Shown here piece after piece: positions 8,534 through 44,444 of a stretch of 44,571 nucleotides of DNA (positions are counted from its first letter, which is position 1; each line of letters starts with the position of its first letter). Origin of the DNA: Onishia taeanensis (GTDB lineage: Bacteria > Pseudomonadota > Gammaproteobacteria > Pseudomonadales > Halomonadaceae). Below the pieces are notes generated by a model. It did no database searches and was not told where the DNA came from. It saw only the letters and a list, made by a program, of their open reading frames with translations. The stretch lies in NCBI RefSeq assembly GCF_900100755.1, contig NZ_FNCI01000020.1:1-44571 (forward strand), given 5' to 3'. A program made the translations under genes and the position numbers.

Positions 8534-11146
<2,613 letters not shown>

Positions 11147-15473: not shown

Positions 15474-16139
15474 TTGGAACTGCTTCAATATGCTTTGGAC
15501 AACATGGAGCTCTTGCTGACCCGCACCATCGAGCATATCTCGCTGGTGGGTGTCGCGGTCGGTATTGCGACCCTGACGGGGGTGCCGATCGGCATCGCCA
15601 TCACCAAGAACGAGCGTGCCGCCAAGACCGTGCTCTACATCGCCTCGATCATCGTGACGATTCCTTCCATCGCGCTGTTCGGCATCATGATCCCGATTCT
15701 GTCGATCATCGGACAGGGCATCGGTTACATGCCGGCGGTCATCGCGGTGCTGCTCTATTCGCAGCTGCCGATCATTCGCAATACCTATACCGCCATCAAC
15801 AATGTCGACCCGGCCCTTCGCGAAGCCGCCCGCGGCATCGGCATGAGCCAGAACCAGCGCCTGCGCATGGTCGAGATCCCGCTCGCCGTGCCGGTGATCA
15901 TGGCCGGCGTGCGCACCGCTGTGGTGCTCAACATCGGCGTCATGGCCATCGCCGCCTACATCGGCGCAGGCGGGCTCGGCACCTTCATCAGCCGCGGCAT
16001 TTCTCAGTCCGACCCGCGGCAACTGATCCTCGGCGCCGTGGCCGTCAGCGTACTGGCGATCATCGTCGACTATTCACTGCTGGCGCTGCAGAAGCGCCTG
16101 ACGCCCAAGGGCATGGAGCGCGCCGCCGCCACCCCCTGA
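15474..16139 (+). CDS. Compatible-solute (betaine/choline-type) ABC transporter permease 1
   Basis: This is an inner-membrane permease of the OpuC/OsmU type, 221 residues with about five to six membrane segments. The EAA loop that docks on the ATPase is visible as EAARGIGMSQNQRLRMVEIP. The family signature NIGVMAIAAYIGAGGLG follows. The start is placed at TTG 15474, since AAGGAG lies 7 bases before it and the resulting N-terminus (MELLQYALDNMELLL) is standard. An in-frame ATG at 15381 would add 31 unrelated polar residues. It is the first gene of a permease-ATPase-permease-binding protein operon, the gene set of quaternary-amine uptake systems. Confidence 0.9.
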   Translation: MELLQYALDNMELLLTRTIEHISLVGVAVGIATLTGVPIGIAITKNERAAKTVLYIASIIVTIPSIALFGIMIPILSIIGQGIGYMPAVIAVLLYSQLPIIRNTYTAINNVDPALREAARGIGMSQNQRLRMVEIPLAVPVIMAGVRTAVVLNIGVMAIAAYIGAGGLGTFISRGISQSDPRQLILGAVAVSVLAIIVDYSLLALQKRLTPKGMERAAATP

Positions 16140-16184
16140 GCCGTCATTCGTGCCACATTCTGCCGACCAGACAAGGACCGCTTC

Positions 16185-17363
16185 ATGATTCGACTCGATA
16201 ACCTGACCAAGGTCTTCGATACGCCCAAGGGCGCCGTGACCGCCGCCGACCACATCAGCATGGAAGTCCCGAGCGGCGAGATATGCATCCTGCTCGGCCC
16301 CTCAGGCTGCGGCAAGACCACCAGCCTGAAGATGATCAACCGCATCATCCGCCCGACCTCGGGCAAGGTCTTCATCAATGGCGAGGACACCAGCAGCCTC
16401 GATACCCAGGCCCTGCGCCGTAATATCGGCTACGTGATCCAGCAGATCGGCCTGTTCCCCAACATGACCATCGAGGAAAACATCACCGTGGTGCCCAAGC
16501 TCTTGGGCTGGGACAAGGCCAAGTACCGAGAGCGCGCCCGTGAAATGATGCGCATGATCGCCCTGGAGCCGGATGCCTTCCTCAAGCGCTATCCCAGCGA
16601 GCTTTCCGGCGGCCAACAGCAGCGTATCGGCGTGGCCCGTGCACTAGCCGCCGACCCCCCGGTAATGCTGATGGACGAACCCTTCGGCGCCATCGACCCG
16701 ATCAACCGGGCGGTGATTCAGGACGAGTTCCTGAAAATGCAGCAGGACCTCAAGAAGACGATCATGTTCGTCAGTCACGACATTGACGAAGCGATTAAGA
16801 TGGGCGACCGCATCGCCATCTTCCGCGCCGGCAAGCTGGTGCAGTACTCGGAACCCGACGAACTGCTCGCCGCCCCCAAGAACGACTTCGTCGAATCCTT
16901 CCTCGGCGAGGACCGAGCCCTCAAGCGCCTCAACCTGGTCAAGGTGCGCGACCTGGCAAGCGACGAGATCGGGCTGGTGCGCCCGGACGATAGCCTCGAG
17001 ACCGCGCTCAAGCGCATCGAAGAGTACGGCTATCAGAACAGCATCGTGATGGTGAACGACAAGCGGCAGCCGGTGGGCATCATCAACGCCGCGGTAGCCC
17101 GCACCACCAGTGGCCATTGTCGCGATCATTTCATGAGCGTGCCGGTGGTGGTCAGCCTCGACGACGACCTGCGCAAGGTCGCCTCTTTGATGTTTGCCAA
17201 CGACATGACCTGGGTCGCCTGCGTCGATGATGACGGCCGTATCGTCGGCCAGATCACCCAGCGGGCGATCACTCATCACCTGGGCTCCCGCTACCGGACT
17301 CACTCTCGCGACCAGGCCACTCTGGATGCCGCGGCATCGCTGTCACCGGCCGACAAGGAGTAA
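16185..17363 (+). CDS. Compatible-solute ABC transporter ATP-binding protein with CBS domains
   Basis: This ATPase subunit drives osmolyte uptake. The protein has 392 residues. Walker A GPSGCGKT is at residues 38-45, the signature LSGGQQQR at 140-147, and Walker B VMLMDEP at 160-166, followed by the H-loop VSHD near 196-199. From about residue 245 two CBS modules follow, as in OpuCA and ProV-type proteins, where they sense ionic strength or nucleotides. It lies 45 bases after the first permease gene and 3 bases before the second, so the three are one translational unit. Confidence 0.95.
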   Translation: MIRLDNLTKVFDTPKGAVTAADHISMEVPSGEICILLGPSGCGKTTSLKMINRIIRPTSGKVFINGEDTSSLDTQALRRNIGYVIQQIGLFPNMTIEENITVVPKLLGWDKAKYRERAREMMRMIALEPDAFLKRYPSELSGGQQQRIGVARALAADPPVMLMDEPFGAIDPINRAVIQDEFLKMQQDLKKTIMFVSHDIDEAIKMGDRIAIFRAGKLVQYSEPDELLAAPKNDFVESFLGEDRALKRLNLVKVRDLASDEIGLVRPDDSLETALKRIEEYGYQNSIVMVNDKRQPVGIINAAVARTTSGHCRDHFMSVPVVVSLDDDLRKVASLMFANDMTWVACVDDDGRIVGQITQRAITHHLGSRYRTHSRDQATLDAAASLSPADKE

Positions 17364-17366
17364 GCC

Positions 17367-18098
17367 ATGCCGACGCTGAACCTCTCTGGGGCAATGCGCC
17401 TGCTGGTGCTGGTGGCCGTCTTCGTGGCTGGGGTCTGGAGCCAGTCCAGTGGCGTGATCGACGACTTCATCTTCTACCTGCCAGATATCCAGTATCTGGC
17501 TGTGCAGCACCTGTGGCTGACCGCCATCTCCGGCAGCCTGGCGATCATGACCGCCATCCCACTGGGGATTCTGCTGTCGCGCCCCAGCATGCAAAAGGTC
17601 GCCGAATCCGCGATGCAAGTACTCAACGTGGGCACCACCATTCCCACACTTGCGGTGCTGGCGCTGTCGATGAGCTTTCTGGGCATCGGCACCGTGCCTG
17701 CGGTGTTCGGTCTCTTCGTGGCCACACTGCTGCCCATCACCCGTAACACCTACACCGGCCTCAAGGGCGTCTCGCCGGCTCTCAAGGAAGCCGCAGCAGG
17801 CATCGGCATGTCGCCCACCCAGCGTCTGCTGCGGGTCGAGCTGCCCAATGCCCTATACGTGATCTTCGCCGGTATCCGCACGGCACTGGCCATCAACGTC
17901 GGCACCGTGCCGTTGGCCTTTTTGATCGGGGCCGGGGGCCTTGGCGAGCTGATCTTCACCGGCATCGATCTCTACGACCCGGTGATGATGCTCTCCGGCG
18001 CCATTCCCACGGCCTTGCTGGCGATTGGGGTGGATATGCTGATCGCCATCATCGCCTTCCTGCTGGTACCCAGGGGAGTGAACCCAAGCCGAGCCTGA
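17367..18098 (+). CDS. Compatible-solute ABC transporter permease 2
   Basis: This is the second inner-membrane permease, 243 residues with an extra N-terminal membrane segment compared with the first. The EAA loop is visible as EAAAGIGMSPTQRLLRVELP, and NVGTVPLAFLIGAGGLGELIF forms the conserved C-terminal block. Its ATG comes 3 bases after the ATPase stop. Two different permeases in one operon suggest a heterodimeric channel, as in OpuCB/OpuCD and YehW/YehY systems. Confidence 0.93.
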   Translation: MPTLNLSGAMRLLVLVAVFVAGVWSQSSGVIDDFIFYLPDIQYLAVQHLWLTAISGSLAIMTAIPLGILLSRPSMQKVAESAMQVLNVGTTIPTLAVLALSMSFLGIGTVPAVFGLFVATLLPITRNTYTGLKGVSPALKEAAAGIGMSPTQRLLRVELPNALYVIFAGIRTALAINVGTVPLAFLIGAGGLGELIFTGIDLYDPVMMLSGAIPTALLAIGVDMLIAIIAFLLVPRGVNPSRA

Positions 18099-18212
18099 TG
18101 CAGGAACCCAAGCCCGGCAAGGACGCATGACCTACGACAAGACGCATGACGGACGTCTCGTCATTCACCACCAATAATTAATGATCGATACATCACAGAC
18201 AGGAGCGACACC

Positions 18213-19094
18213 ATGAAAACCCTGATGACTCTGCTCACCGGCGCGGCACTGGCCGGCACCCTGGCGACCGCCCAGGCCAACGAGATCGTGGTCGGTGGCA
18301 AGAACTTCACCGAGCAACAAATCCTTGCCAGCATGACCAGCCAGTACCTCGACGGCCTGGGCTATGACGTCGAGAAGCGCTCGGGCATGGGCTCCGCCGT
18401 GCTGCGCCAGGCCCAAGAAAACGGCCAGATCGACCTGTACTGGGAATACACCGGCACCTCGCTGATCAACTACAACGACGTCACCGAACGCCTGTCGCCG
18501 CAAGACACCTACACGCGGGTCAAGGAACTCGATGCCGAGAAGGGCCTGGTCTGGCTCGCGCCCTCCGATGCCAACAACACCTACGCCCTGGCCATGCGCG
18601 AAGAGGATGCCCAGAAACGCGGCATCGAGACACTTTCCGACCTTGCTGCGGCGATCAACGACGGTGACGAGCTGACCTTCGCCCTGAATGCCGAGTTCTA
18701 CGCTCGCGAGGACGGCTGGCGCCCGCTGCAACAGGCCTATGACTTCCGGGTCGGCCGCGGCGACGTCAAGCGCATGGATTCCGGGCTGGTCTACCAGGCG
18801 CTGCGCGATGGCCAGGTCGACGTCGGTCTGGTATTCGCCACCGATGGCCGCATTCCGGCTTTCAACTTCCAGGTGCTTGAAGACGACCAGAGCTACTTCC
18901 CGGCCTATGCCCTGACCCCGGTGGTACGAGAAGAAACACTCTCGGCCAACCCTGATCTCGAGGCTCAGATGAACGCACTTTCCGCCCTGCTCGACGACAA
19001 CACCATGTCCAGCCTCAACGCCCAAGTTGACGTCGAAAAAGAAACCATCGAGCAGGTTGCCGAAGGCTTCCTCAAGCAACACGAAATGCTGTGA
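18213..19094 (+). CDS. Periplasmic glycine betaine/choline-type substrate-binding protein
   Basis: The protein has 293 residues with a Sec signal peptide (MKTLMTLLTGAALAG core, cleavage expected after ATAQA at about residue 22). The mature part begins NEIVVGGKNFTEQQIL, the usual start of OpuCC/OsmF-type binding proteins. SGMGSAVLRQAQENGQIDLYWEYTGT carries the aromatic residues (YWEYTG) typical for binding quaternary ammonium groups. AGGAG lies before the ATG. It is the last gene of the transporter operon and is closed by a strong terminator. The exact ligand (betaine, choline, carnitine or another) cannot be read from the sequence. Confidence 0.92.
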   Translation: MKTLMTLLTGAALAGTLATAQANEIVVGGKNFTEQQILASMTSQYLDGLGYDVEKRSGMGSAVLRQAQENGQIDLYWEYTGTSLINYNDVTERLSPQDTYTRVKELDAEKGLVWLAPSDANNTYALAMREEDAQKRGIETLSDLAAAINDGDELTFALNAEFYAREDGWRPLQQAYDFRVGRGDVKRMDSGLVYQALRDGQVDVGLVFATDGRIPAFNFQVLEDDQSYFPAYALTPVVREETLSANPDLEAQMNALSALLDDNTMSSLNAQVDVEKETIEQVAEGFLKQHEML

Positions 19095-19137
19095 TCGGCG
19101 CCTGAGTGGGTATCGCCCCGCTTGCGTGATCGTCTCG

Positions 19138-19165
19138 AAGGCCGCCCCAGAGCGGCCTTCTTTTT
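19138..19165 (+). terminator. Rho-independent terminator after the transporter operon
   Basis: An 8-bp perfect stem, AAGGCCGC (19138-19145) with GCGGCCTT (19152-19159), closes a 6-base loop and is followed by CTTTTT. It separates the transporter from the MmgE/PrpD gene, so the next genes need read-through or their own promoter. Confidence 0.9.
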
Positions 19166-19195
19166 GCCACCCGCCCTGCTTGCGAGATCACTGCC

Positions 19196-20542
19196 ATGCC
19201 TGAGCCGACGAAACAGGAACTCACCGCGCACGAGTCCACAGAGGCGTCGATTCCTCTCGACTGGATACACCGGGTCGATCTTTCGACCCTCAACGAGGGC
19301 GACCTGCACCAAGCCAAGCGCTGCCTGCTCGACCTGCTGGGCGTGGCCGCCGGCGCCACCCGCACAGCGCTTGCCGACAAGGCCGCGCGCTTCGTGACCA
19401 CACAGCACGGCGGTAACCGTCCGCTGCTGTTCGCCCCGGGGCGGGCCTCGCCCACCGGCGCCGCCTTGCACGGCGCCTGGCTTATCGATGCGCTCGATGC
19501 CCACGACGGCCAGGTGCTGACCAAGGGGCATTGCGGCGTGGCGTTACTGCCCGGCCTGCTTGCCCTGCCCGAGACCACCAAGCTGTCGGGACACGACTTT
19601 CTTGCCCTGCTGGTCTACGGCTATGAAATTGCCACCCGTGCCGGCATTGCCCTGCATGCGCAGAGCCCTGACTACCACACCTCCGGTGCCTGGAACGCGC
19701 TAGGCGTCGCCGCTGTGGCCGCACGCCTGCGCGGCTTCGACATCGAGCCCCTGCATCACGCACTGGGTATCGCCGAGTTCTATGGCCCGCGCAGCCAGAT
19801 GATGCGCTGCATCGACCACCCGACGATGCTCAAGGACGGCTCCGGCTGGGGTGCCATGACCGGTATCTCGGCGGCCCTGCTGGCCGAGGACGGCTTCACC
19901 GGCGCCCCGGCGCTGACCGTGACGGCACCAGAAGTCGCCTCCCTATGGCAGGACCTGGGCAAACGCTGGTACGTGCATGAACAGTACTTCAAGGCCTATC
20001 CGGTGTGCCGCTGGGCGCAACCGGCGGTAGAAGCCGTGCTCGCACTCCCGGCGGATAAGCGCGAGCCGGCAAGGATCGAGCGCATCGAGATCGTCACCTT
20101 CCATGAGGGCAAGCGCCTGCATGTGACCCACCCCACCACCACCGAGCAGGCCCAATACAGCCTGCCCTGGTCGGTGGCATGCGCGCTTGGCCGTGGCAGC
20201 GTCGATGTCGCCGGCGTCTGCGACGAGCTGAGCGCCCCGGACCTCAAGGCCCTGGCCAGCAAGGTAGAGATTCACGAGGATGAGGCCTTCAACGCCCGCT
20301 TTCCCGCCGAGCGCTGGGCACGTGCCAGGCTGCATCTCGATAGCGGCGAGGTGATCGAAAGCGCCGACTTCGAGGCCCGCGGCAACCCGGACACGCCTCT
20401 CACGGATGCCGAAGTGATCGCCAAATATCAGGCACTGGCGGAGCCCGCGCTAGGTGAGCGAGCGACTCGGCTGCGCGAGGTGGTGATGAGCCTGGAGGCG
20501 CGGCCCATAAGCGACCTGCTGGCCCTGCTGGGCGAACCTTGA
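19196..20542 (+). CDS. MmgE/PrpD family protein
   Basis: The protein has 448 residues, the normal length of the MmgE/PrpD family, which includes 2-methylcitrate dehydratase, cis-aconitate decarboxylase and iminodisuccinate epimerase. Family features include the N-terminal LLDLLGVAAGATRT region, NGA-like helices, HDGQVLTKGHCGVALLPGLLAL near residue 105, and KAYPVCRWAQPAVEAVLAL near residue 265. There are no membrane segments. It lies 31 bases after the transporter terminator and 76 bases before a nitrilase-family gene in the same direction. No methylcitrate-cycle gene is near, so PrpD itself is unlikely and the substrate is unknown. Confidence 0.85.
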   Translation: MPEPTKQELTAHESTEASIPLDWIHRVDLSTLNEGDLHQAKRCLLDLLGVAAGATRTALADKAARFVTTQHGGNRPLLFAPGRASPTGAALHGAWLIDALDAHDGQVLTKGHCGVALLPGLLALPETTKLSGHDFLALLVYGYEIATRAGIALHAQSPDYHTSGAWNALGVAAVAARLRGFDIEPLHHALGIAEFYGPRSQMMRCIDHPTMLKDGSGWGAMTGISAALLAEDGFTGAPALTVTAPEVASLWQDLGKRWYVHEQYFKAYPVCRWAQPAVEAVLALPADKREPARIERIEIVTFHEGKRLHVTHPTTTEQAQYSLPWSVACALGRGSVDVAGVCDELSAPDLKALASKVEIHEDEAFNARFPAERWARARLHLDSGEVIESADFEARGNPDTPLTDAEVIAKYQALAEPALGERATRLREVVMSLEARPISDLLALLGEP

Positions 20543-20618
20543 AGCACCACCATGCGGGTGCGATGATCCGCGGCAATGGCCCACCACCCCTTCCGTCATC
20601 CCACAGCGAGACGCGACC

Positions 20619-21461
20619 ATGCACTATCAGGATCACCTGCGCGTCGGCGCCGCCCAGATCAACGCCACCCTGGGCGATGTCGATGCCAATCTCGAGCGCC
20701 ATCTGGATATGATCGCCAAGGCTCGCCACGCCGGGCTGGAGCTGCTGGTCTTTCCCGAACTTTCCCTGACCGGCTATGGCCTGGGTAACCAGGTGATCGA
20801 ACTGGCCTGCCCGGCCGAGGACCCGCGGCTTGCGGACCTCGCCCAGGCCGCCGGCGATATGCAGGTGGTGGTTGGCTTCGTCGAGGAAGCGAGCCCCGGC
20901 GAATACTACAACGCCCTGGCGATTTGTCAGCATGGCGCGCTACAGGCCGTGCACCGTAAGCTTAACCTGCCGACCTACGGCGGCCTGGAGGAAGGTAAGC
21001 TCTTCACTCACGGCAGCGAATTGACCCATGTGCCAGTGCGCCAGGGCTGGTCCGCGACCTCGCTAATCTGCGCCGACCTGTGGAACCCCGGCCTGGTGCA
21101 TGCCGCCCTGCTGGCCAGGCCCACGGTGCTGTGCGCGCCGATCAACTCGGCATCCGGCATCGTCAGCGACGACTTCTCCAACGAACAGAACTGGGCCATC
21201 AACCTTCAATTCTATGCCATGACCTATGGCACGCCGGTGATCATGGCCAATCGCTTCGGCCCCGAGGGCGGGAGCCACTTCTGGGGCGGCTCACGCATTC
21301 TCGGCCCAAGAGGCGATATCCTGGCGTTGGCCGAGGATCGGGAAATGCTGATCGAGGCGCGACTATCGCGCACCGCCATTGCCAGAGCCCGCTTCGAACT
21401 TCCCACCCACCGAGACGCCGATACCCCGCTGGTACGCGAGCTGATGGCCGGCTATCGCTGA
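20619..21461 (+). CDS. Nitrilase-superfamily carbon-nitrogen hydrolase
   Basis: The protein has 280 residues. The catalytic triad of the superfamily is complete: Glu47 in FPELSLTGYG, Lys114 in HRKLNLPTYG, and Cys151 in ICADLWNP. The sequence around Glu and Lys is closest in style to the glutamine-hydrolysing domain of NAD synthetases, but there is no synthetase domain. It probably hydrolyses an amide or carbamoyl bond. It follows the MmgE/PrpD gene in the same direction with a short gap, so the two likely act in one pathway, perhaps on a compound imported by the transporter upstream. That link is inference. Confidence 0.85.
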   Translation: MHYQDHLRVGAAQINATLGDVDANLERHLDMIAKARHAGLELLVFPELSLTGYGLGNQVIELACPAEDPRLADLAQAAGDMQVVVGFVEEASPGEYYNALAICQHGALQAVHRKLNLPTYGGLEEGKLFTHGSELTHVPVRQGWSATSLICADLWNPGLVHAALLARPTVLCAPINSASGIVSDDFSNEQNWAINLQFYAMTYGTPVIMANRFGPEGGSHFWGGSRILGPRGDILALAEDREMLIEARLSRTAIARARFELPTHRDADTPLVRELMAGYR

Positions 21462-33482: not shown

Positions 33483-34155
33483 GGTGATCATTTCCTCTAT
33501 CTTGTTGAGCCAATGTTTCCAATAAGCTGATGATTCGCAGGAACCTTTGTTATAAACCACCAAGTTCAGCCGGGTTGATCCGCTGAAGGTTTGAGTTGAG
33601 GCTGTGCCCATACGGCGACGAGCAGCGCCTGAAGCACTGTGTCAGGAAACATCATTAGAGTCACCTACCCCCAAGAGCGAGCGGCATCTGCGGTACTAGC
33701 CGATGGTCAGTCACCTTGCCCAATTACTAGCTTTCACGCCGGCATGAGAAGCGATCGCTGAAGATCCTACCGTAGGCTCCCAGCTCTTCCACTAGCTACT
33801 AGCTTCCGTGCTTACTACCGCAGTCATCATGGGAGGAGCAGCATTGGCGATGGGATTTCTATGACGCAAGCGTCGTCTTCAACACGTTCACCGCTGGATC
33901 GCCACTTCTATAGCGGAGGGGATACCTGCGGCCATCTACCCGACAGCGGAACGGCAGCTAGCCGCCCAGCGTATGAGATAGCAGGAGCACTCGCGGTGTG
34001 GCACCGCGAGTGCCCTCTCGCAGGAGAGTGCTGTCCGGGGTCTAGGTGGAAGCCAGACAGTAACAAGGCAATGCCGAGAGCCTGCAGGACTTGCTTTACC
34101 CTAGACGCTTCACCAGAATTCTCGCCCTTTCCCCTTTCCCACTAGGAGACATGCC
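33483..34155. other. Gene-poor accessory stretch with an isolated hairpin
   Basis: About 670 bases without a supported gene. It includes a perfect 12-bp hairpin (GCACTCGCGGTG at 33987-33998 with CACCGCGAGTGC at 34002-34013, loop of 3). The hairpin has no T-tract and is followed by a second small CTCTC/GAGAG stem (34014-34027), so it is more likely a repeat remnant than a terminator. Confidence 0.45.
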
Positions 34156-34479
34156 ATGGAACGCCTTTTCATCTACGGAACGCTTGGCCCCGGCCGCCCC
34201 AACGAACACGTCATGCAGAAGATCGGCGGCACCTGGGAAGCAGGAAGCATCAAAGGCCGGCTCATCGAAGCGGGTTGGGGCGCCGAGATGGGGTTCCCCG
34301 GCTTGGTGCTGGACGACGCCGGCGATGATATCGAAGGCCATGTTTTTGTGTCGGAGAACCTGTCTCAGCATTGGACTGCGCTGGACGACTTTGAAGGGGA
34401 AGAGTACCAACGACAACTGACAACGGTGATACTATCCACGGGTGGCACAACTGAAGCCTACGTATACGCTCTACGCTGA
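34156..34479 (+). CDS. Gamma-glutamylcyclotransferase-like (AIG2) protein
   Basis: The protein has 107 residues with the short cyclotransferase fold. The substrate loop YGTLGPGRPNEH is near the start, and the catalytic Glu candidate lies in LDDFEGEEYQR. Members act on gamma-glutamyl amines or peptides, but many are uncharacterised. AGGAG lies 7 bases before the ATG. It stands alone in a gene-poor region. Confidence 0.85.
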   Translation: MERLFIYGTLGPGRPNEHVMQKIGGTWEAGSIKGRLIEAGWGAEMGFPGLVLDDAGDDIEGHVFVSENLSQHWTALDDFEGEEYQRQLTTVILSTGGTTEAYVYALR

Positions 34480-34538
34480 AGCACTGATCGCATCGCTGAC
34501 ATTCTGTGGGCGCCGGGTCTTCTTCTCGGAGTCTGACA

Positions 34539-34727
34539 CTATCCCGGTGTGTTTTGCTTTAGGTGTCGACGGTACTCATCCAGCGTTTCACCGGTGAGAC
34601 GCCGGAACATCGCGATAAACGCTAAGGCAGTGGCATAGCCTAGATCCACGGCAATGCCTTCGACCTTTGCCCCGGGCCTCCTGACGCAGAGGCGCTGCCT
34701 CCACACCGACAGCGACCTCTGATTCAC
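34539..34727 (-). pseudogene. AraC-family regulator fragment (C-terminal helix-turn-helix)
   Basis: About 60 residues are left. LSVWRQRL and IAVDLGYATALAFIAMFRRLTGETLDEYRRH are the usual AraC DNA-binding segments, of which I quote only the parts. The spacer between them is shorter than in intact proteins and no effector domain is in frame upstream, so this is a decayed remnant. Confidence 0.65.
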
Positions 34728-34742
34728 TGCGCGGTGCGTCTT

Positions 34743-35006
34743 TTACCAGAAGGCTGGATCATTGAACGCCTCGACACACTGCACCGCCCCCTTCAGCGGC
34801 GTTATCTCAGCCTCTGTGAGCGACTGTGCGAGCCAGCCCTCGGGGTATTGCAGCTTAAACGGCACGGGGATAAATGCCTCAGTGACCAGCGCAAAGCCAA
34901 CACGCGAGTAGTCGTTCGGATCACCATAGGTCACAGCGATGTCGATCTCCGCCTCACGCAGCGCCGGCAGAGGGGTAGCTTCTACAGACGCTCCGATCAT
35001 CGGCAA
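34743..35006 (-). pseudogene. Probable LysR effector-domain fragment
   Basis: The frame of 87 residues has LREAEIDIAVTYGDP followed by GFALVTEAFIPV, like the middle of a GcvA-type LysR effector domain, where one expects GEIDLAIRYGD and a later PVCSP. No helix-turn-helix is present. It directly precedes the AraC fragment on the same strand. The identity is tentative. Confidence 0.4.
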
Positions 35007-35127
35007 CCCGACAGCTATCAGTCAAATGAGATCGTTGGTACTTCTCTGATATTAACGCCGCCAACACGCGCAGCTTTGTAGTGGAGGCGAAGCCGCAACG
35101 TAAAAGCTGTCGCCGTGATTGGCCTGG

Positions 35128-35985
35128 TTATATTTCTTCCGAGATGGCACTTTCTTGGCCGCACGAGTTACAACTAAGGACAAATTCTCCCGAATTTTCT
35201 CCACCAACGATATCATAGTCCATGCTCTTGCATTCCGGACACTTGGGTTCGTCATCAAACCCTAAGTATTTAAGGAATAGGTTTTGAATTACAGATACTG
35301 CAGAGCATGTAAAAAGAAGGCATATCTTTGCATCTGGGATATTTTTATTGGGAGAATGCACGACTTCGGAAGACTGGTCCCAGGCCGACTCGATTAAATC
35401 TCTACAGCGTTTGCGGAGATTGCTATTTCGCTTGCCTACTGCATAGATATTGATGACGGCCTTAGCAATACCTTTGAAATCTGCGGACTTCAACCCATGA
35501 TCTTTGAGAAGCTCAGGGTTTCCTTTTGCTAAAACCCCAGCCAGCTCAATGAGACTCTCTCTGCAAGTAAGACCGATAGACTGAATGTCTTCTGGTCCGG
35601 ACACATCGTTTAGCTCAAGTGCCGCACTATTAAGCCTACGGCTTATCGATTTTATGCCATCAATGTCGAGTGGAACTTCGTCGATTACATGTTTGAACGT
35701 CTGATGGTGTCTTGCTTGAAGTCTTTGAGTTATCCCCATATGGAACGAGTAGGCCTCGTCAGCCGAGAAGTAGAACTCGTTCTGCGTATACAGGTTCATA
35801 GGAGCGCTTTCTCCTTCGACAACCCACCAATTGCCACCGCTAGTCCTAATATTCCATACATGAACCTCATGCCCTAAATCATCAAAAGTTTGCTCTACCT
35901 GCATATTTTTGATGTCATCAACATCATTATTTGCAAGGTAAGATGCAATCCTCTGTTCGGCATCTATGCGATATTCAGGTGTCAT
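35128..35985 (-). CDS. AT-rich accessory gene: helical protein with C-terminal zinc ribbon
   Basis: The protein has 285 residues. Base composition is clearly lower in G+C than the neighbours, with AT-type codons, which points to recent transfer. An N-terminal domain of about 90 residues (WNIRTSGGNWWVVEGESAPMN in the middle) is followed by a helical region (residues 100-240) with features such as CRESLIELAGVLAKGN and VVHSPNKNIPDAKICLL, reminiscent of HEPN-like or DUF4145-like helical domains. A zinc ribbon follows with Cys249, Cys252, Cys272 and Cys275. No canonical HEPN RNase motif is seen. I do not recognise the family. A defence-type role is only a guess from context. Confidence 0.7.
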   Translation of the reverse strand: MTPEYRIDAEQRIASYLANNDVDDIKNMQVEQTFDDLGHEVHVWNIRTSGGNWWVVEGESAPMNLYTQNEFYFSADEAYSFHMGITQRLQARHHQTFKHVIDEVPLDIDGIKSISRRLNSAALELNDVSGPEDIQSIGLTCRESLIELAGVLAKGNPELLKDHGLKSADFKGIAKAVINIYAVGKRNSNLRKRCRDLIESAWDQSSEVVHSPNKNIPDAKICLLFTCSAVSVIQNLFLKYLGFDDEPKCPECKSMDYDIVGGENSGEFVLSCNSCGQESAISEEI

Positions 35986-36406
35986 TTTCCTCTACTTTTC
36001 TGATTGCCTTAAATATATAACAGTGATTATACAGAACGCTCGTTTATTGACTTGAACGAGCGAGCGCGTTCAATACTCTTATACTGCCACACCAACCCAT
36101 TGATTTCTCAATGCATTTCTATTTACGCGGCTATATAGCACCAATAAACGTGCCTACTGCCTTTGCCGGCATGTCTGCTTTGGGTCAAAGCCCGAAGGCA
36201 GCTACGAAGCACTTCAAGCGAATATCGGCTTCACCACGCTACCGCCGGGTGAAGCCATTACAGGCAACACCTTCCTGGCAGTCGTGACCGTTTTGGGCAC
36301 GCCCCTTCCTCGGGGAGATAAGCACTTGCACTCCCCCTAACCTACCGTGCCTTAGCGTTGATTTATATGGTGCTTGATTGGAAATAACAGGGCCAGGCTC
36401 GCCGTG
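35986..36406. other. AT-rich intergenic region upstream of the accessory gene
   Basis: The stretch includes an 8-bp dyad, CGCTCGTT (36037-36044) with AACGAGCG (36055-36062), about 50-80 bases before the accessory gene. It may be an operator or a terminator remnant. Around 36190-36330 an open frame without a start exists, but it cannot be matched to a family. Confidence 0.4.
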
Positions 36407-38014: not shown

Positions 38015-38546
38015 GAAAACGTCCTGCCCTCTCCGTCCGAGAAATCGGAAGCCCTGTGAAGCCTATTGCAGGCAATCGACGGCGCCCTGTCCTGCTGAAC
38101 ATGTCCTAGTCAACATGCAAGCGGCTCTACCCCAACACCCACCGATTGCCTTGGCTGGAACGTGCACCAGCCCAACGCTCGCCGACATCCAGCCGCACTT
38201 CGATGCGAAGCACTCTCCCCACGCTGCTGCCAGGTGATGCCATGGTAGGCGCCACTTTTCCTGTCAATCTGAACCAGCAGGTGCCACGCTTCGCAAAACC
38301 GGGACCTCGATACTCATAAATTAACCTATTTTTACGTTTATTTACATTAAGATTGTTTGAACATACACAAACACCGGCACGACACTGCCTGGTCAACGTC
38401 ATCGTTAGAACCCGCTTGTATAAAGCATCCCCTTCGGGGGCCTTCGTCAGGGAATGTCGCAGAGATGCTAACGCCACAAAAACGCCCGCCCCGGCAAGCG
38501 GGGCGGGCGTGGGCATCAACGAGGTAAGCTACTGACTTTTTAAAAC
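38015..38546. other. Intergenic region between the mmsA and GGDEF genes
   Basis: These 530 bases hold the mmsA terminator and an AT-rich patch around 38310-38360 that could carry the GGDEF promoter. A small CCCC-TTCG-GGGG hairpin lies near 38430. No gene is supported. Confidence 0.45.
38482..38510 (-). terminator. Terminator closing the mmsA operon
   Basis: A perfect 12-bp stem (ACGCCCGCCCCG with CGGGGCGGGCGT) has loop GCAAG. On the minus strand it is followed by TTTTGTGG. It is almost identical to the hairpin at 31917-31948. Confidence 0.85.
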
Positions 38547-40034
38547 CTAGGACGGAAAGCTGAACTGGGCGCTCTCCTGGGCGCTGCGCTGCGGCCAGCG
38601 CTGGGAAACCGCCTTGCGGCGGGTATAGAAGCGCACGGCATCTGGCCCATAGGCATGCAGATCGCCGAACAGCGAGTCCTTCCAGCCGCCGAAGCTGTGG
38701 AAGGCAACCGGCACCGGCAGCGGCACGTTGATACCCACCATGCCGACCTCGATGGCATCGGCGAAGCGGCGCCCGGCCTCGCCATCGCGGGTGAACACGC
38801 AGGTGCCGTTGCCGTACTGGTGGGCGTTGATCAGCGCGATGGCCTCTTCGAAGGTCTCGACGCGTACCACGCACAGTACCGGGCCGAAAATCTCGTCGCG
38901 GTAGATGCTCATTTCCGGGGTGACTCGATCGAACAGGGTCGCGCCGAGGAAGTAGCCCTTTGATCCCTCGACCAGCGGATGCTGGCGACCGTCGACGACC
39001 AGCTCTGCGCCGGCAGCGGCGCCCTGCTCGATGTAGCCAGCAACCTTGTCGCGCTGGCCGGCGTTGATCAGCGCGCCCATGTCGAGGCCCTTCTCGGTGC
39101 CCGGGCCGATCTTGAGTTCGCGGGCCTGGCCTGCCAGGCGCTCGACCAGAGCATCGGCGGTGGCCTCACCCACGCACACGGCCACCGAAATCGCCATGCA
39201 GCGCTCGCCGGCACTACCGTAAGCGGCGCCGATCAGGGTGCTGGCGGCGTTATCGATGTCCGCATCCGGCAGCACCACGGCATGGTTCTTGGCGCCACCC
39301 AATGCCTGGACGCGCTTGCCCTGCTGGGTGCCGCCTTCGTAAATCTTGCGCGCCACCGGCGTAGAGCCGACAAAGCTCAGCGCGCGGACCTCGGGCGCCT
39401 CGATGAGCGCATCGACGGCTTCGCGGTCGCCGTGGACGACGCTGAACAGCCCCCTTGGCAGCCCTGCTTCGTCGAGCAGTTCGGCCATCTTCACGGCGGC
39501 CGAGGGCGCCTGTTCGGAAGGCTTGAGAATGAAGGCATTGCCACAGGCCAGCGCCATCGGGTACATCCACAGCGGTACCATGGCCGGGAAGTTAAACGGC
39601 GTGATGCCGGCGACGATGCCCAGCGGCTGGTGGTTCGACCAGGTATCGATGCCGGGGCCGGCATTATGGGAATACTCGCCCTTGAGCAGCTCCGGCACGC
39701 CGCAGGCGTACTCGACGTTCTCGATGCCGCGCTTGAGTTCGCCCATGGCGTCCTCGAGCACCTTGCCGTGCTCTTCGCTGATCAGCGCGCAGATCTCCTC
39801 GGCATCACGTTCGAGCAGCGTCTTGAAGCGATACATCACTTGGGCGCGCTTGGCCGGCGGCATGTCGCGCCAGGCGGGCTGGGCCTCGCGGGCGGCGTCG
39901 ATGGCGCGCTGCACGGTGGCGGTATCGGCCATCGCCAGGCGCCGCACGGGTTCGGCGGTGGCCGGGTTGATCACCTCGAGGGTGCGTTCGCTAGCGACGG
40001 CTTCACCGGCGATGTGATGGTTCAGGGTATGCAT
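38547..40034 (-). CDS. mmsA: CoA-acylating (methyl)malonate-semialdehyde dehydrogenase
   Basis: The enzyme oxidises methylmalonate or malonate semialdehyde with NAD and CoA to propionyl-CoA or acetyl-CoA with loss of CO2. The protein has 495 residues, as in MmsA/IolA. The catalytic Cys is at 279 in GSAGERCMAI. The usual aldehyde-dehydrogenase motif ELGGK is changed to ALGGAKNH, the form in this CoA-dependent family that lacks the general-base Glu. PFNFPAMVPLWMYP is the family's substrate and cofactor loop. It is the last gene of an operon with an M24 enzyme and a 2OG oxygenase. Without valine or inositol genes near, a role on malonate semialdehyde (as for DddC) is possible. Confidence 0.93.
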   Translation of the reverse strand: MHTLNHHIAGEAVASERTLEVINPATAEPVRRLAMADTATVQRAIDAAREAQPAWRDMPPAKRAQVMYRFKTLLERDAEEICALISEEHGKVLEDAMGELKRGIENVEYACGVPELLKGEYSHNAGPGIDTWSNHQPLGIVAGITPFNFPAMVPLWMYPMALACGNAFILKPSEQAPSAAVKMAELLDEAGLPRGLFSVVHGDREAVDALIEAPEVRALSFVGSTPVARKIYEGGTQQGKRVQALGGAKNHAVVLPDADIDNAASTLIGAAYGSAGERCMAISVAVCVGEATADALVERLAGQARELKIGPGTEKGLDMGALINAGQRDKVAGYIEQGAAAGAELVVDGRQHPLVEGSKGYFLGATLFDRVTPEMSIYRDEIFGPVLCVVRVETFEEAIALINAHQYGNGTCVFTRDGEAGRRFADAIEVGMVGINVPLPVPVAFHSFGGWKDSLFGDLHAYGPDAVRFYTRRKAVSQRWPQRSAQESAQFSFPS

Positions 40035-40112
40035 CAGGGGATGACTCCAACCTCGGGTCGTGTTCTCAGTGTTCGGGCCGGGCCTTGCCCGGCGTGTCTT
40101 GTGCGAGCGTGC

Positions 40113-41396
40113 TCAGACCTGACGGCCCAGCAGGGCTTCATCGAACGGATAGCGTGAGAGCTTCTCGATGCCGGTGTCGGTGACCAGCACTTCTTCCTCG
40201 AGCTTGACGCCGTCGGCACCGCCGACCTCGCCGATATAGCTCTCGACGGAGACCACCATGCCGGGCTCGAGGATGCCGTCCTTCGAGAAGCGGTCGAAGT
40301 CCATATGGTGAGCCACCAGCGGCGTTTCGCCGTGCATGCCAACGCCATGAATGATCGACGGATAGCGACGATCAAGAAAGCGCTCGGGAATCTTCCAGGC
40401 CTTTTCCGCGATCTCGCGATAGCTCATGCCGGGCCTGAGGATCGACATGTTGTGGTGCACCTGATCATAGGCCATCTGGTAGAGGCTCTGCTGGTAGCCG
40501 CTGGGGCGGCCCGGCCCGACATGGAAGGTGCGCGAGAAATCGGAGTAGTAGCCGTGACAGCCGATGGTGTCGGTGTCCAGCGCGATCAACTCGCCGGGAC
40601 GTACGACGCGGTCGCTCGCCTCGTTGAACCAGGGGTTGGTGCGCGGGCCGGAAGACAGCAGCCGCGTCTCGATGAACTCGCCGCCCTGCTTGATGACGTT
40701 GCCATAGAGAGTCGCAAACAGCTCGGTCTCGGTGATGCCCGGCTTGATGGCGGCTTCCACTTCGGCCACTGCGGCCTCGCTACCGGCCATCGACTGTGCC
40801 AGGCAGGCGATCTCTTCCGGCGTCTTGATGCGGCGGCAGTGCAAGGTGTCCTGCATGCAGTCGAAGACCTCGAGGCCCTGGGCCTCCAGCGAGCGAGCCA
40901 GGTTCAGGGCGCAGCGGTCCAGGCCGATCTTCTTGTTGCCTTGGCCGTGCTCTTCCATCAGTTCGGCGATCTCGATGCCGAAGGGATCCGAGGACAGGTT
41001 GTCGCGCTGGTTGACTGCCGACCACACCACCTTGGAGGTGCGCGATTCATCGATGGTCTCGAGCCAGGTCGAGACGTGGGCGCTGCCCGGGTACTCGAAA
41101 AGGATCACCGGGCCTTCCAACGGCACATAGATATAGCGCGTGGAGTTGCGCAGGAAGTAGCCGAACATGTTGCGCGAACCGGTGGCATAGCGCTGGTTGT
41201 AGGGGTCGAACAGCACCACGGCGCCATAGCCCTGCTCGGCCATCATCTGGCGCAGGCGCTTGAGACGCCCGGTACGCAGCTGCACCGGGTCGAAGGCGGT
41301 GGGAATGCTGTCGCCGTTGCCCACGGGCGCCGAAGGCACCACCGGGATAGTGGCGGGTTCGTTGTCGGTCAGGTTGTCGAAATCGACGATGCTCAT
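40113..41396 (-). CDS. M24-family metalloenzyme, DddP-like
   Basis: The protein has 427 residues with the creatinase/aminopeptidase-P (pita-bread) fold. All five metal ligands of M24 enzymes can be seen: the Asp in ALDTDT, the Asp in YSDFSRT, His in IHGVGMHGE, Glu in VSVESYIGE and Glu in KLEEEVLV. The blocks ETRLLSSGPRTNPWF and YPFDEALLG are close to those of the DMSP lyase DddP, but the Asp six residues after the metal His in DddP is Gly here (HGVGMHG). It is therefore a relative and not DddP itself; ectoine hydrolase DoeA and Xaa-Pro peptidases are more distant. The start is ATG 41396, two codons inside a TTG. It is the middle gene of the operon. Confidence 0.85.
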   Translation of the reverse strand: MSIVDFDNLTDNEPATIPVVPSAPVGNGDSIPTAFDPVQLRTGRLKRLRQMMAEQGYGAVVLFDPYNQRYATGSRNMFGYFLRNSTRYIYVPLEGPVILFEYPGSAHVSTWLETIDESRTSKVVWSAVNQRDNLSSDPFGIEIAELMEEHGQGNKKIGLDRCALNLARSLEAQGLEVFDCMQDTLHCRRIKTPEEIACLAQSMAGSEAAVAEVEAAIKPGITETELFATLYGNVIKQGGEFIETRLLSSGPRTNPWFNEASDRVVRPGELIALDTDTIGCHGYYSDFSRTFHVGPGRPSGYQQSLYQMAYDQVHHNMSILRPGMSYREIAEKAWKIPERFLDRRYPSIIHGVGMHGETPLVAHHMDFDRFSKDGILEPGMVVSVESYIGEVGGADGVKLEEEVLVTDTGIEKLSRYPFDEALLGRQV

Positions 41397-41469
41397 GATC
41401 AAGCTCTCTGTTTATTCGTTGCCGTATTCGCGGGGAATCTGCATAGGTCCGACCGTGGCGTCATCGCCT

Positions 41470-42351
41470 TCAGTCGGCCAGGCTGTCGCTGCGCTGCATG
41501 CCCTCTTCGAGCAGCCGTTCGTGAACCGGGGCCATGCGACCGAAGATGCGCTTGGCGCGCTCGGGGCGGCCGATGAAGCCCGGTTCCTTGGCGTAGGCGA
41601 AAATCACGGTATGGCGCTCGCGGTCGCCCTCTACCGGGGTGACTCGGTGCAGCGAATAACGGCCGAAGAACACCTGCAGATCCCCCGGCTGAAGGTCGAG
41701 AGACTTGAGTCGCGAGCGGTCGCCGTCGATGACCTGCTCGACCGCGTCGAAGTTTTCGCCTTCGGGGCTGCGGATGCCAGGGGCGTACTCGAAGCGCCCG
41801 CCGCCTTCGGACTGGCGAGTCATCATGGTGACGATGAATTCGTTGGTGTCGTAGTGCCAGGGATGCTGGCAGCCTTCGCGCAGCACATTGACGACCAGAT
41901 CCGCCAGGGGGTCGGCGTACTGGTGGATCTCCTCCATGCCCACCACGCTTGCGATGAAGTGCTGAAATCCGGGGTGGGAATAGACCTGGCGGATGATGGT
42001 ATCGCCGTCGATGCGGTCACCGGCAACGAAGCCGTTGGTGCGGTCATCGAAGCGGTTCTTGGGATGCGAGGCCGGCAGGCTCGGGTCGGCGTCGCTGTTG
42101 TAGGGGTTGGTCTCGGTCTGGTTGTAGTGCGCCTGCGGCGACAGGCGCTCGGTCTCGCGTTCGAGCCGCGCCAGGGCCTCTTCGGGCACGAAGCCCTTGA
42201 GCACCACACAGCCATCCTGGCCAAGCTGCTGTCGGCATTCGGCGATCAGCTCGCGCCCGCGGTCCCCCTCCAGGTGGTGAATGGGGTAACGTTCCAGGTC
42301 GATCAGCCCCTGCAGTGAAGTATCGTCTTCCTGAATGCGGTGGCTTTGCAT
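41470..42351 (-). CDS. 2-oxoglutarate/Fe(II)-dependent oxygenase, PhyH/HalD-like
   Basis: The protein has 293 residues with the double-stranded beta-helix. The iron triad is complete: His166 and Asp168 in WHYDTNEF, and His235 in RYSLHRVTPVEGD, with Arg246 positioned for 2-oxoglutarate. The HxD form argues for a hydroxylase; radical halogenases such as BesD, which share the RYSLHRVTPVEG block, carry HxG. GGGRFEYAPGIRS is also typical for this small-molecule-acting subgroup. AGGAG lies 7 bases before the ATG. It is the first gene of the operon, facing a divergent LysR gene, so it probably makes the first modification of the substrate. Confidence 0.9.
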   Translation of the reverse strand: MQSHRIQEDDTSLQGLIDLERYPIHHLEGDRGRELIAECRQQLGQDGCVVLKGFVPEEALARLERETERLSPQAHYNQTETNPYNSDADPSLPASHPKNRFDDRTNGFVAGDRIDGDTIIRQVYSHPGFQHFIASVVGMEEIHQYADPLADLVVNVLREGCQHPWHYDTNEFIVTMMTRQSEGGGRFEYAPGIRSPEGENFDAVEQVIDGDRSRLKSLDLQPGDLQVFFGRYSLHRVTPVEGDRERHTVIFAYAKEPGFIGRPERAKRIFGRMAPVHERLLEEGMQRSDSLAD

Positions 42352-42456
42352 GTCGTTGCTCCTGCCTGATCAATAACGTATAGACAGGGTAGAGAGACAG
42401 GATTAATAATAGAAATGAATGGTTCAGATATAAAAGATTGCAAGGGCTCATAGATC
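42352..42456. promoter_or_regulatory. Divergent promoter/operator region of the oxygenase operon
   Basis: This 105-base AT-rich region separates the LysR gene and the oxygenase gene. It holds a direct repeat GACAGG at 42383-42388 and 42396-42401 (period 13) and several A/T tracts. No perfect T-N11-A dyad stands out. By position it should carry the LysR site. Confidence 0.45.
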
Positions 42457-43350
42457 ATGGATACCGACCTGCTACGCGCCTTCGTGACGGTGGCCGAATG
42501 CGAAGGGTTCAGCGCCGCCGGCAAGGTACTGCACCGCACTCAGTCTGCCGTCAGCCTGCAGATCAAACGCCTCGAAGACCAGATGGGCGAGTCGTTGTTC
42601 GAGCGCACCAGTCGCAGTGTAGTACTGACACCGCCCGGCGGCCGCCTGCTGCCCTACGCACGTCATATCTTGAAGCTGCAGGACGAGGCGCAGCGGGTCA
42701 TGGGCGTGGAGCGCCAGGGCGAGTTGATCCGGCTTGGTACCTCCGAAGAGCAGGCCAGTACCTACCTGCCCGAGCTACTGCCGCGCTTTGCCGCCCGCTT
42801 TCCCGAAGTGCGCCTCGAAGTCATCTGCAGCATCAGTGGCTCGCTGGTACATGACTTTCAGGAAGGCCTGTTGGATGCCGCCCTGGTGGTTCGCCACGGG
42901 CCGACCCAGACCGGCAGGCTGCTAGGACGCGAGCCGATGGTTTGGGTAGTAGCCGAGGATTGTTCGGTCAGCGACTGGGAAACGCTACCACTCGCCATGA
43001 ATCCCGAAGGTTGCACCTTCCGCGCCCATGCCTTTGCGGCACTGGGCCCTACCGACTGGCGCTGGGACGTGCGCTACTCAAGCCAATCTCCCACCGGTAT
43101 CAACCTACCGGTTCAGGCGGGTCTGGCGGTCACCGTCAAGACCCCGCGCAGCGTTCCCGAAGGCTGTCGTATCGTCGGCGATGACGAAGGGCTACCACCG
43201 CTTGGGCATGTCGAGATCGAACTGCACCGCACGCCGGGGCATTCAAGCGATGCCTTCACCGCCTTCTGCGATGAGCTGGAAGCCATCGTCACCGGCACCG
43301 ACTCGCTGGAGTCGCTCAAGTATGTGGCAAGCCAAGGAGCAGGTGACTAG
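42457..43350 (+). CDS. LysR-family regulator, divergent from the oxygenase operon
   Basis: The protein has 297 residues. The N-terminal helix-turn-helix reads LLRAFVTVAECEGFSAAG then TQSAVSLQIKRLEDQMG. The effector domain starts near residue 90 (GELIRLGTSEEQASTYLPELL). The divergent arrangement with the oxygenase-M24-mmsA operon points to a dedicated activator, likely responding to the pathway's substrate. The serine/threonine-rich ligand loop after residue 95 (TSEEQAST) is in the usual inducer site. Confidence 0.92.
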   Translation: MDTDLLRAFVTVAECEGFSAAGKVLHRTQSAVSLQIKRLEDQMGESLFERTSRSVVLTPPGGRLLPYARHILKLQDEAQRVMGVERQGELIRLGTSEEQASTYLPELLPRFAARFPEVRLEVICSISGSLVHDFQEGLLDAALVVRHGPTQTGRLLGREPMVWVVAEDCSVSDWETLPLAMNPEGCTFRAHAFAALGPTDWRWDVRYSSQSPTGINLPVQAGLAVTVKTPRSVPEGCRIVGDDEGLPPLGHVEIELHRTPGHSSDAFTAFCDELEAIVTGTDSLESLKYVASQGAGD

Positions 43351-43409
43351 TCTTTCTTAGGCTCGACCGCGCCTGGCCACTAATGGGCCACCAACAGGAG
43401 TCGCTTGTC

Positions 43410-43868
43410 ATGGAGTACGACATTCAGTTGAAGCGTATCTATGCGCCACCGGAGGTAGACGACGGGGCGCGCGTGCTGGTTGACCGGCTGTGGCCCCGGG
43501 GGAAACGCCGAGAAACGCTGGCACTGAGTGACTGGTACCGCGATGCCTCACCCTCCAATGGCCTGCGCCGCGACTGGCATCAAGAAAAGATCAGCCACGG
43601 CGTTTTCACTCGCCGCTATCGTTGGGAAATGGCGGATGCCAAGGACTGCCTGCTGCCGCTGATGCGCTTGGCACGTCGCGGCCGGCTGACGCTGCTATCC
43701 GCCGCGCGAGACCTCGAACAATCTCACCTGCCGATCCTGCGCGAGGCGCTGCTTGAAGCACTCACCGTGGAAGACCGCGAGGCAGACGACAGCGCCCCCA
43801 GCTCGCCGCCCTGCTATGCCACCTCAATGCCCGACGAGCCTGCAGCCAACCAACGACCGGAATCTTGA
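43410..43868 (+). CDS. DUF488-family protein
   Basis: The protein has 152 residues of a widespread family of unknown function. The family block RVLVDRLWPRGKRRE is at residues 21-35, and a later LTLLSAARD near 100 is also typical. The last 30 residues are low-complexity and not part of the domain. The start is ATG 43410 with AGGAG 10 bases upstream, nine codons inside a longer frame. It follows the LysR gene in the same direction. Confidence 0.88.
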   Translation: MEYDIQLKRIYAPPEVDDGARVLVDRLWPRGKRRETLALSDWYRDASPSNGLRRDWHQEKISHGVFTRRYRWEMADAKDCLLPLMRLARRGRLTLLSAARDLEQSHLPILREALLEALTVEDREADDSAPSSPPCYATSMPDEPAANQRPES

Positions 43869-43979
43869 GACGCCGCCAGCCGGCGCCGAGCCAAAGCCGC
43901 GCAAACCGACGAGTTAACCACTTACCCACTATTCGCTTGTCTCTGGCCAGTCGCCCGGCTGGCTGGCACTATTTCACGC

Positions 43980-44444
43980 ATGACCCGACGCCTACTGATT
44001 GTGGCCCATGCGCCCTCCCCCAATACCCAGCGCCTGCGCGAGGCCGCCGAGCGCGGCGCACGCCACCCGGATCTCGATGACATCGAGGTAAGCGTAAAAG
44101 CACCGCTCGACGCGGGGCCCGACGACATTCGCGGCTGCGATGCCATCCTGCTCGGCACTACCGAAAATCTGGGCTACATGAGCGGGGCGCTGAAAGACTT
44201 CTTCGACCGCAGCTACTACGCCGTGCTCGAGGAGAAACAAGGCCTGCCCTGCGCGCTCTATGTGCGTGCCGGCCATGACGGCACCGGCACCCGTCGAGCA
44301 GTGGAGTCGATCGTCACCGGGCTGCGCTGGCGTTGGGTGCAGGAGCCGCTGATCCTGCGCGGTGATTGGCAGGAGGCCTTCGCCGATCAAGTAGAGGAAC
44401 TGGGACTCTATCTGGCCGCCGGGCTGGATGCCGGGATCTGGTGA
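43980..44444 (+). CDS. Flavodoxin-fold NAD(P)H-dependent oxidoreductase-like protein
   Basis: The protein has 154 residues. The N-terminal RLLIVAHAPSPNTQRL is a flavodoxin-type phosphate loop in which SPNT takes the usual place of the FMN-phosphate residues. GTTENLGYMSGALKDFFDR is the second flavin-contact block, as in NADPH-dependent FMN reductases. YVRAGHDGTGTRRAVESI is the third. It may act as a flavodoxin or a small quinone/FMN reductase. It is the last intact gene before the right IS end. Confidence 0.85.
   Translation: MTRRLLIVAHAPSPNTQRLREAAERGARHPDLDDIEVSVKAPLDAGPDDIRGCDAILLGTTENLGYMSGALKDFFDRSYYAVLEEKQGLPCALYVRAGHDGTGTRRAVESIVTGLRWRWVQEPLILRGDWQEAFADQVEELGLYLAAGLDAGIW

Follow-up and report, generated by a model that had tools for sequence, protein, structure and literature searches.

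A conserved oxygenase–M24 locus in Onishia taeanensis and its probable part in the uptake and breakdown of betaine-type compounds

Which compound would be handled by a gene cluster that joins a hydroxylase-like oxygenase to a relative of a dimethylsulfoniopropionate (DMSP) lyase? This question is raised by one end of a 44,571-nt stretch of Onishia taeanensis DNA (contig NZ_FNCI01000020.1, assembly GCF_900100755.1; the whole stretch is hereafter called the window), where genes for an Fe(II)/2-oxoglutarate (2OG) oxygenase, an M24 metalloenzyme related to the lyase DddP and an MmsA-type dehydrogenase follow one another on the minus strand, headed by a divergent LysR-family gene. Taken together with a second operon in the same window, the cluster probably constitutes a two-operon module for uptake and breakdown of a zwitterionic quaternary-ammonium (betaine-type) compound. 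The arrangement given in a preliminary description of this DNA (three minus-strand genes with short gaps, a terminator and a divergent LysR gene) was borne out by the open reading frames (ORFs), the gaps and a terminal hairpin:

42457–43350, plus strand: LysR-family regulator (297 aa; HTH_1 and LysR_substrate domains), divergent from the catabolic genes
42352–42456, no strand: divergent intergenic region with operator-like site (105 bp between the two starts)
41470–42351, minus strand: Fe(II)/2OG oxygenase of the BesD/HalD kind, predicted hydroxylase (293 aa; HxD...H triad; PF23169)
40113–41396, minus strand: DddP-related M24 metalloenzyme, predicted metal-dependent hydrolase or lyase (427 aa; PF00557; Gly356 at the Asp377 position)
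38547–40034, minus strand: MmsA-type coenzyme A (CoA)-acylating (methyl)malonate-semialdehyde dehydrogenase, optional member (495 aa; TIGR01722)
38482–38510, minus strand: intrinsic-terminator-like hairpin 3' of MmsA (12-pair stem, T-rich tail)

The intergenic gaps measured 78 bp between MmsA and M24 and 73 bp between M24 and the oxygenase (67 bp with a TTG start at 41402; the ATG at 41396 is most likely the M24 start). Eleven of the 12 stem pairs of the hairpin were G-C, and it was the longest of six terminator-like sites in the window, against 4.4 expected in shuffles.

Conservation of the cluster was evaluated in 80 loci from one scan of named genomes with the oxygenase as query, mostly Halomonadaceae with a few Natronospirillum, Marinobacter, Ectothiorhodospiraceae and Roseibium, and the gene maps of these loci were checked by tblastn. 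The M24 gene followed the oxygenase gene in all 80, and in 77 the divergent LysR gene was its neighbour on the other side; the three others (L066, L079 and L085) had LysR approximately 5 kb upstream, with intervening genes that in L066 encode a Liv/Urt-type ABC importer. The conserved core is LysR, the BesD/HalD-type oxygenase and the DddP-related M24 enzyme. The preliminary view of a real, catabolic-looking gene module held, and a failure of the genes to occur together outside this strain is ruled out for the core. In a set of 398 genomes from across the phylum, M24 matches reached E ≤ 1e-60 in 41 and oxygenase matches reached E ≤ 1e-25 in 23; among the matches listed, the eight best for the oxygenase (at least 279 bits, from seven genomes) all adjoined M24, while none of the 17 weaker ones adjoined a listed M24. 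In 25 pairs the distances of the two proteins rose together (r 0.90, a value reached by none of 5000 permutations), a correlation to which shared genome descent contributes. No relative was found in the viral contigs searched.

The exact trio with MmsA that had been proposed did not hold. In the 77 loci whose sequence runs on for at least 1.8 kb beyond M24, MmsA was immediately downstream in 44 (in one of them across a 1.5 kb gap) and missing from that place in 33. MmsA-like genes were present elsewhere in the genome in all eight checked genomes whose locus is without MmsA, so that, given its adjacency in only 44 loci, the malonate-semialdehyde step would be optional or shared. The window protein itself passed the methylmalonate-semialdehyde dehydrogenase model TIGR01722 (659.6 bits, cut-off 448.5), a likeness to the 3-hydroxypropionate branch of DMSP catabolism (DddA/DddC) and to valine-type MmsA. 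The locus differs from that branch in that no DddA or DddD gene was seen there, and in the 33 loci where MmsA does not lie beside the pair.

The second operon, at 15381–21461, had been overlooked in the preliminary description. It encodes an OpuC-type importer, an MmgE/PrpD protein and a carbon-nitrogen hydrolase:

15381–16139, plus strand: OpuC-type ABC importer permease 1 (clusters with relatives matching PF00528)
16185–17363, plus strand: OpuC/ProV-type ABC ATPase (TIGR01186 proV 349.8 bits, cut-off 326.6; a relative has a CBS domain)
17367–18098, plus strand: OpuC-type ABC importer permease 2
18213–19094, plus strand: betaine-type substrate-binding protein, OpuAC (PF04069, 232 bits, above cut-off)
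19196–20542, plus strand: MmgE/PrpD-family protein, possible dehydratase or epimerase (clusters with an L102 protein matching MmgE_PrpD)
20619–21461, plus strand: nitrilase-superfamily carbon-nitrogen hydrolase (co-occurrence with the oxygenase; curated models below cut-off)

The best PDB matches of the MmgE/PrpD protein were IRG1, IDS-epimerase and cis-aconitate decarboxylase (E 5e-17 to 1.6e-7), and the best curated models for the hydrolase were the glutaminase part of nicotinamide adenine dinucleotide (NAD+) synthase and N-carbamoylputrescine amidase, both far under cut-off. In relatives such as L037, L088, L095 and L150, the OpuC importer, hydrolase and MmgE/PrpD genes lie beside the trio. 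Considering 151 genomes of the family, with orthologs of the oxygenase defined by at least 75% identity, the hydrolase was present in 51 of the 52 genomes carrying the ortholog and in two of the 99 others, one of these being a fragment (Fisher's exact 1e-36, uncorrected for kinship). Hydrolase and oxygenase shared a contig in 44 of the 51 genomes and lay at most 30 kb apart in 39, the nearest at 2.2 kb. Where only a diverged oxygenase paralog was present, the hydrolase was found in one of 14 genomes (the fragment).

The substrate class is indicated by the binding protein, whose nearest PDB relatives were acetylcholine/nicotine-sensor, ProX and OsmF proteins. When mapped on Archaeoglobus ProX, six of the seven betaine-contact positions were identical (K13, Y63, T66, Y111, R149 and Y214), and the seventh, Y190, was replaced by Phe; the corresponding window residues are K30, Y79, T82, Y124, R165, F208 (at ProX Y190) and Y232. 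Judged from these residues, the pocket appears to suit a trimethylammonium group together with a carboxylate. The importer resembles OpuC/OsmF/ProX systems (PF04069; AfProX) in its binding-protein family, its ProV-type ATPase and these contacts, but it sits with catabolic genes, and OsmF identity of the binding protein was ruled out by its score against NF049931 (183.7 bits, cut-off 400). That the compound handled belongs to the zwitterionic quaternary-ammonium class is likely, and the earlier guess of betaines was supported by the importers. Candidates weighed, with none favoured, were beta-alanine betaine, gamma-butyrobetaine, carnitine and proline or hydroxyproline betaine, as well as amino-acid betaine amides and creatine-like compounds.

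The association with betaine transporters was also found around further Halomonadaceae oxygenase–M24 pairs, 42–48% identical to that of the window. As an independent test, nine paralogous oxygenase loci were fetched before their neighbours were seen. M24 lay beside the oxygenase in eight of them, all eight with an OpuAC (L192, L193, L194, L199 and L200) or BCCT (L196, L197 and L198) gene at most 1.3 kb away; Pfam scans covered seven of these eight neighbours, and that of L199 was assigned by homology to a scanned protein and by family search. The M24 reading frame of L196 falls into two ORFs. L193 also encodes a GbdR-like regulator, together with a protein whose best match is gamma-butyrobetaine dioxygenase, under the cut-off of that model. 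The ninth locus, L195, showed no M24 and no OpuAC or BCCT match with the reference set used; the same 20 kb that holds its oxygenase paralog (9795–10670) includes class III aminotransferase genes and one MmsA-like gene. Altogether, OpuAC or BCCT genes lay within 10 kb of 12 of 17 oxygenase–M24 pairs from 13 genomes, where placement at random would give 1.4 (P 1e-10), and within 25 kb of 14; the 17 pairs are a non-random sample (eight picked before the neighbours were seen, nine known beforehand), in which two M24 end points were estimated. A broader reading is plausible, if less secure: the pair may be a general betaine-dismantling route, in which BesD-like hydroxylation is followed by breakage of a C-N bond by an M24 enzyme of a DddP-neighbouring lineage without the lyase base, and which has been copied and matched to OpuC, choline-type ABC and BCCT importers. 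If so, a family of oxygenase–M24 routes would exist in addition to those that use Rieske, MttB or CutC enzymes.

Hydroxylation next to a betaine importer could also serve modification of an osmolyte, such as a hydroxylated betaine used as protectant, rather than breakdown. The hosts are halophilic, and 2OG hydroxylases, EctD among them, often make hydroxylated solutes; yet the hydrolases, MmsA, the catabolic-type LysR arrangement, and relatives of the locus beside MttB and sarcosine-oxidase-like genes make this explanation improbable, even if it survives slightly better than the others considered below.

The oxygenase matched PF23169 (HalD) with 62.9 bits (cut-off 26), has a BesD/HalD-type fold and matched no NCBIfam model. 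Its motif H166-Y-D168 aligned to the H-W-G of the halogenase HalB, with D168 present in 127 of 127 rows, and the protein is predicted, from motif and fold only, to be of the hydroxylase type, in agreement with the earlier call of an HxD, HalD-like hydroxylase. Halogenase identity was ruled out by HxD in place of the HxG of halogenases. Identity to BesD, HalA, HalB and HalD halogenases and a BesD-like lysine hydroxylase (PDB 7jsd, 6nie and 7u6j) was 17–19%, and partner genes and substrate class differ from those of these enzymes. The EctD fold was not among the structure matches listed for the oxygenase, although the two may still be kin.

For the M24 protein, DddP is the natural reference. PMC4108388 gives Asp295, Asp297, Asp307, His371, Glu406 and Glu421 as the DddP metal ligands and favours Asp377 as the catalytic base. 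All six ligands are kept in the window protein (D274, D276, D286, H350, E385 and E401; the Glu421 position is D or Q in some M24 homologs), as is Tyr366, while Trp95 is replaced by Tyr and the Asp377 position is occupied by Gly356. Of the 111 homologs with at least 60% identity, 110 likewise have Gly at this position, and the remaining row is truncated there. Among curated models DddP came nearest (E 5e-96), and DddPs supplied the top four matches of known structure (PDB 4s01 and 4b28 are among DddP structures), with prolidases as the next structural-sequence relatives; nevertheless, the score against NF043017 (DddP) was 322.3 bits, under the cut-off of 600 passed by the controls L127 (903.1) and L124 (840.0), both Rhodobacteraceae, and L144 (635.3). 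In a tree of 44 chosen, not sampled, rows, a branch with 100/98 support parted 27 rows, all with Gly at the Asp377 site, from 17, all with Asp, and an oxygenase was next door in 21 of the 27 Gly rows vs. three of the 17 Asp rows. The predicted structure was poor (mean predicted local distance difference test score 55.6) and was not used. By these sequence comparisons the window M24 protein is DddP-like in build and no DddP, membership being ruled out by the Gly, the score and the separate clade; a further difference from DddP is its constant pairing with a 2OG oxygenase in the 80 loci. The DddP likeness claimed in the preliminary description stands as kinship, nearer than to any dipeptidase, and the C-S lysis suggested with it is not supported.

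These results bear directly on a DMSP or dimethylsulfoxonium propionate route, in which M24 would act as the DddP lyase, MmsA would take the role of DddC and the oxygenase would work on a side product. Such a route draws on the DddP kinship and retained ligands and on OpuC systems, which can carry DMSP, but the two substitutions, the low score and the supported branch render it very unlikely. Equally little credence is given to peptide or N-methyl-peptide turnover by an ordinary Xaa-Pro peptidase lying near the oxygenase by chance: prolidases come next after DddP, public annotation reads 'Xaa-Pro peptidase family protein' and the paralog pair of L134 is beside a peptide-type binding protein, yet no peptidase model came near its cut-off (the best, PRK09795, gave 69.7 bits against 393, ruling out an ordinary Xaa-Pro peptidase), the pairing with the oxygenase is invariable and betaine transporters stand beside the pairs. 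Least probable of all is a variant of ectoine/hydroxyectoine breakdown with an EctD-like hydroxylase and a DoeA/EutD-like M24 hydrolase, which shares both enzyme superfamilies and the kind of host with the locus, but whose ectoine-hydrolase models were missed by hundreds of bits (NF038259, 53.7 bits, cut-off 575; TIGR02993, 20.7 bits, cut-off 613), ruling out DoeA/EutD, while the oxygenase folds with BesD/HalD, the importer is OpuC, and regulator and partners differ.

For the betaine-type module, a sequence of steps can be proposed, of which the exact chemistry, taken step by step, is doubtful. The importer (15381–19094), to judge from its pocket residues and families, would take up the compound, and the BesD-type HxD oxygenase would hydroxylate it or a product of it. 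The M24 enzyme, a metal enzyme without the DddP base, might then act on the hydroxylated compound by breaking a C-N (or C-C) bond, the choice of bond being a guess. The carbon-nitrogen hydrolase and the MmgE/PrpD protein could carry out amide and isomer or dehydration steps, in an order that is likewise guessed, and MmsA, where present, would convert a C3/C4 semialdehyde product to an acyl-CoA. LysR would control the oxygenase–M24 operon through a conserved site in the spacer. Compared with glycine-betaine/carnitine catabolism (Rieske, MttB, gamma-butyrobetaine dioxygenase), importers and neighbours are similar in several relatives, with the difference that the oxygenase–M24 pair replaces or supplements those enzymes.

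The spacer site, ATTCATTTNNATTAT read towards the oxygenase (ATAATNNAAATGAAT on the reverse strand), is operator-like and conserved, and is possibly the LysR site. Of the 92 spacers compared, 78 agree with its 15-mer core in at least 13 positions, a count made in the same intergenic regions from which the core was derived and in which some spacers are near-copies.

Besides the kinship left uncorrected in the Fisher value, several observations weigh against the betaine-type module. Halophiles commonly carry BCCT and OpuC genes (seven and seven in this genome). The two operons are 21 kb apart in the window, and no convincing copy of the operator-like site was seen ahead of the transport operon: all 60 shuffles were beaten only by Natronospirillum L088 and L094, and 57 of 60 by the window. 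The pair occurs without the hydrolase in genome G857, the hydrolase without the pair in G877 and G779 (the fragment), and no hydrolase was found in the genome of the Roseibium locus L102. In L066, L079 and L085 (Litchfieldella/Halomonas) a Liv/Urt-type importer stands by the pair (Pfam scan for L066 only); these genomes carry the hydrolase nonetheless. Both G380 pairs and the G664 pair had no OpuAC or BCCT gene within 10 kb, one G380 pair adjoining a peptide-type binding protein. Finally, the tree rows L152, L153 and L162, with a distant oxygenase (31–43%) next door, keep the Asp, and L147, an M24 homolog outside the tree, has a Gly-like sequence at the Asp377 site.

Searches of open-licence PMC papers listed none on the oxygenase–M24 pair. 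In saline and marine systems, betaine-type osmolytes are major reserves of carbon and nitrogen, and methylamines arise from them. A new oxygenase–M24 route would account for genes that carry the labels 'hypothetical' or 'Xaa-Pro peptidase' in Halomonadaceae, Stappiaceae and other Pseudomonadota. For surveys, it would caution against taking each DddP-like M24 gene for a DMSP lyase; the locus also offers an evolutionary case, the DddP base being lost in a clade whose members mostly adjoin a hydroxylase.

Methylated amines are the thread common to the other contexts in which relatives of these genes were found. L137 includes an MttB-family methyltransferase and an M19 peptidase, and L151 has what are presumably MttB-family, flavin adenine dinucleotide (FAD) oxidase and sarcosine-oxidase-like genes. 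On pSymA of Sinorhizobium meliloti (L159, 7374–17829), MttB-family, GlxA (GbdR-like) regulator, M24 (62%), isochorismatase, OpuC importer, MR/MLE and Ldh-family genes were found, with no oxygenase in the 21 kb covered; this is probably another betaine catabolic island without the oxygenase. The pSymA 1021 record holds no annotation for that stretch, and a literature search on the S. meliloti locus tags returned nothing relevant. On plasmid 1 of Paracoccus denitrificans (L160, 6469–14994), OpuC importer, carbon-nitrogen hydrolase, acyl-CoA dehydrogenase, CoA ligase and PrpD genes lie in a row, near a ring-hydroxylating oxygenase and with no oxygenase–M24 pair in that stretch, perhaps as a CoA-dependent version of the same route.

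Among minor observations, the Chromohalobacter-like genome G837 (L192 and L193) carries three paralogous oxygenase–M24 modules. Every one of them has a separate regulator or importer, and choline-type binding proteins occur at two of the three. Rhizobial operons (L140, 3020–10101; L146, 9685–16981; L148, 4447–10480) combine an MttB-family methyltransferase and an FAD oxidoreductase with an M24 protein in which Asp377 of DddP is retained; that of L148 scored 483 bits, too low for the DddP model. These proteins make up a second M24 group, outside DddP, in the catabolism of methylated amines. In the window, DUF488 (N3i subclade) and flavodoxin/flavin mononucleotide-reductase-like genes follow LysR (43383–44444), as in some relatives, and between both operons (34001–36000) the G+C content falls to 0.52 vs. 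0.60–0.65 elsewhere, possibly by an insertion. Distant relatives of the oxygenase (33–37% among the matches listed) were also found on enterobacterial plasmids (Pantoea 70 and Klebsiella 7 of 92 records), annotated as 2OG-Fe(II) oxygenase or arpA, some of them beside M14/DUF2817 genes.

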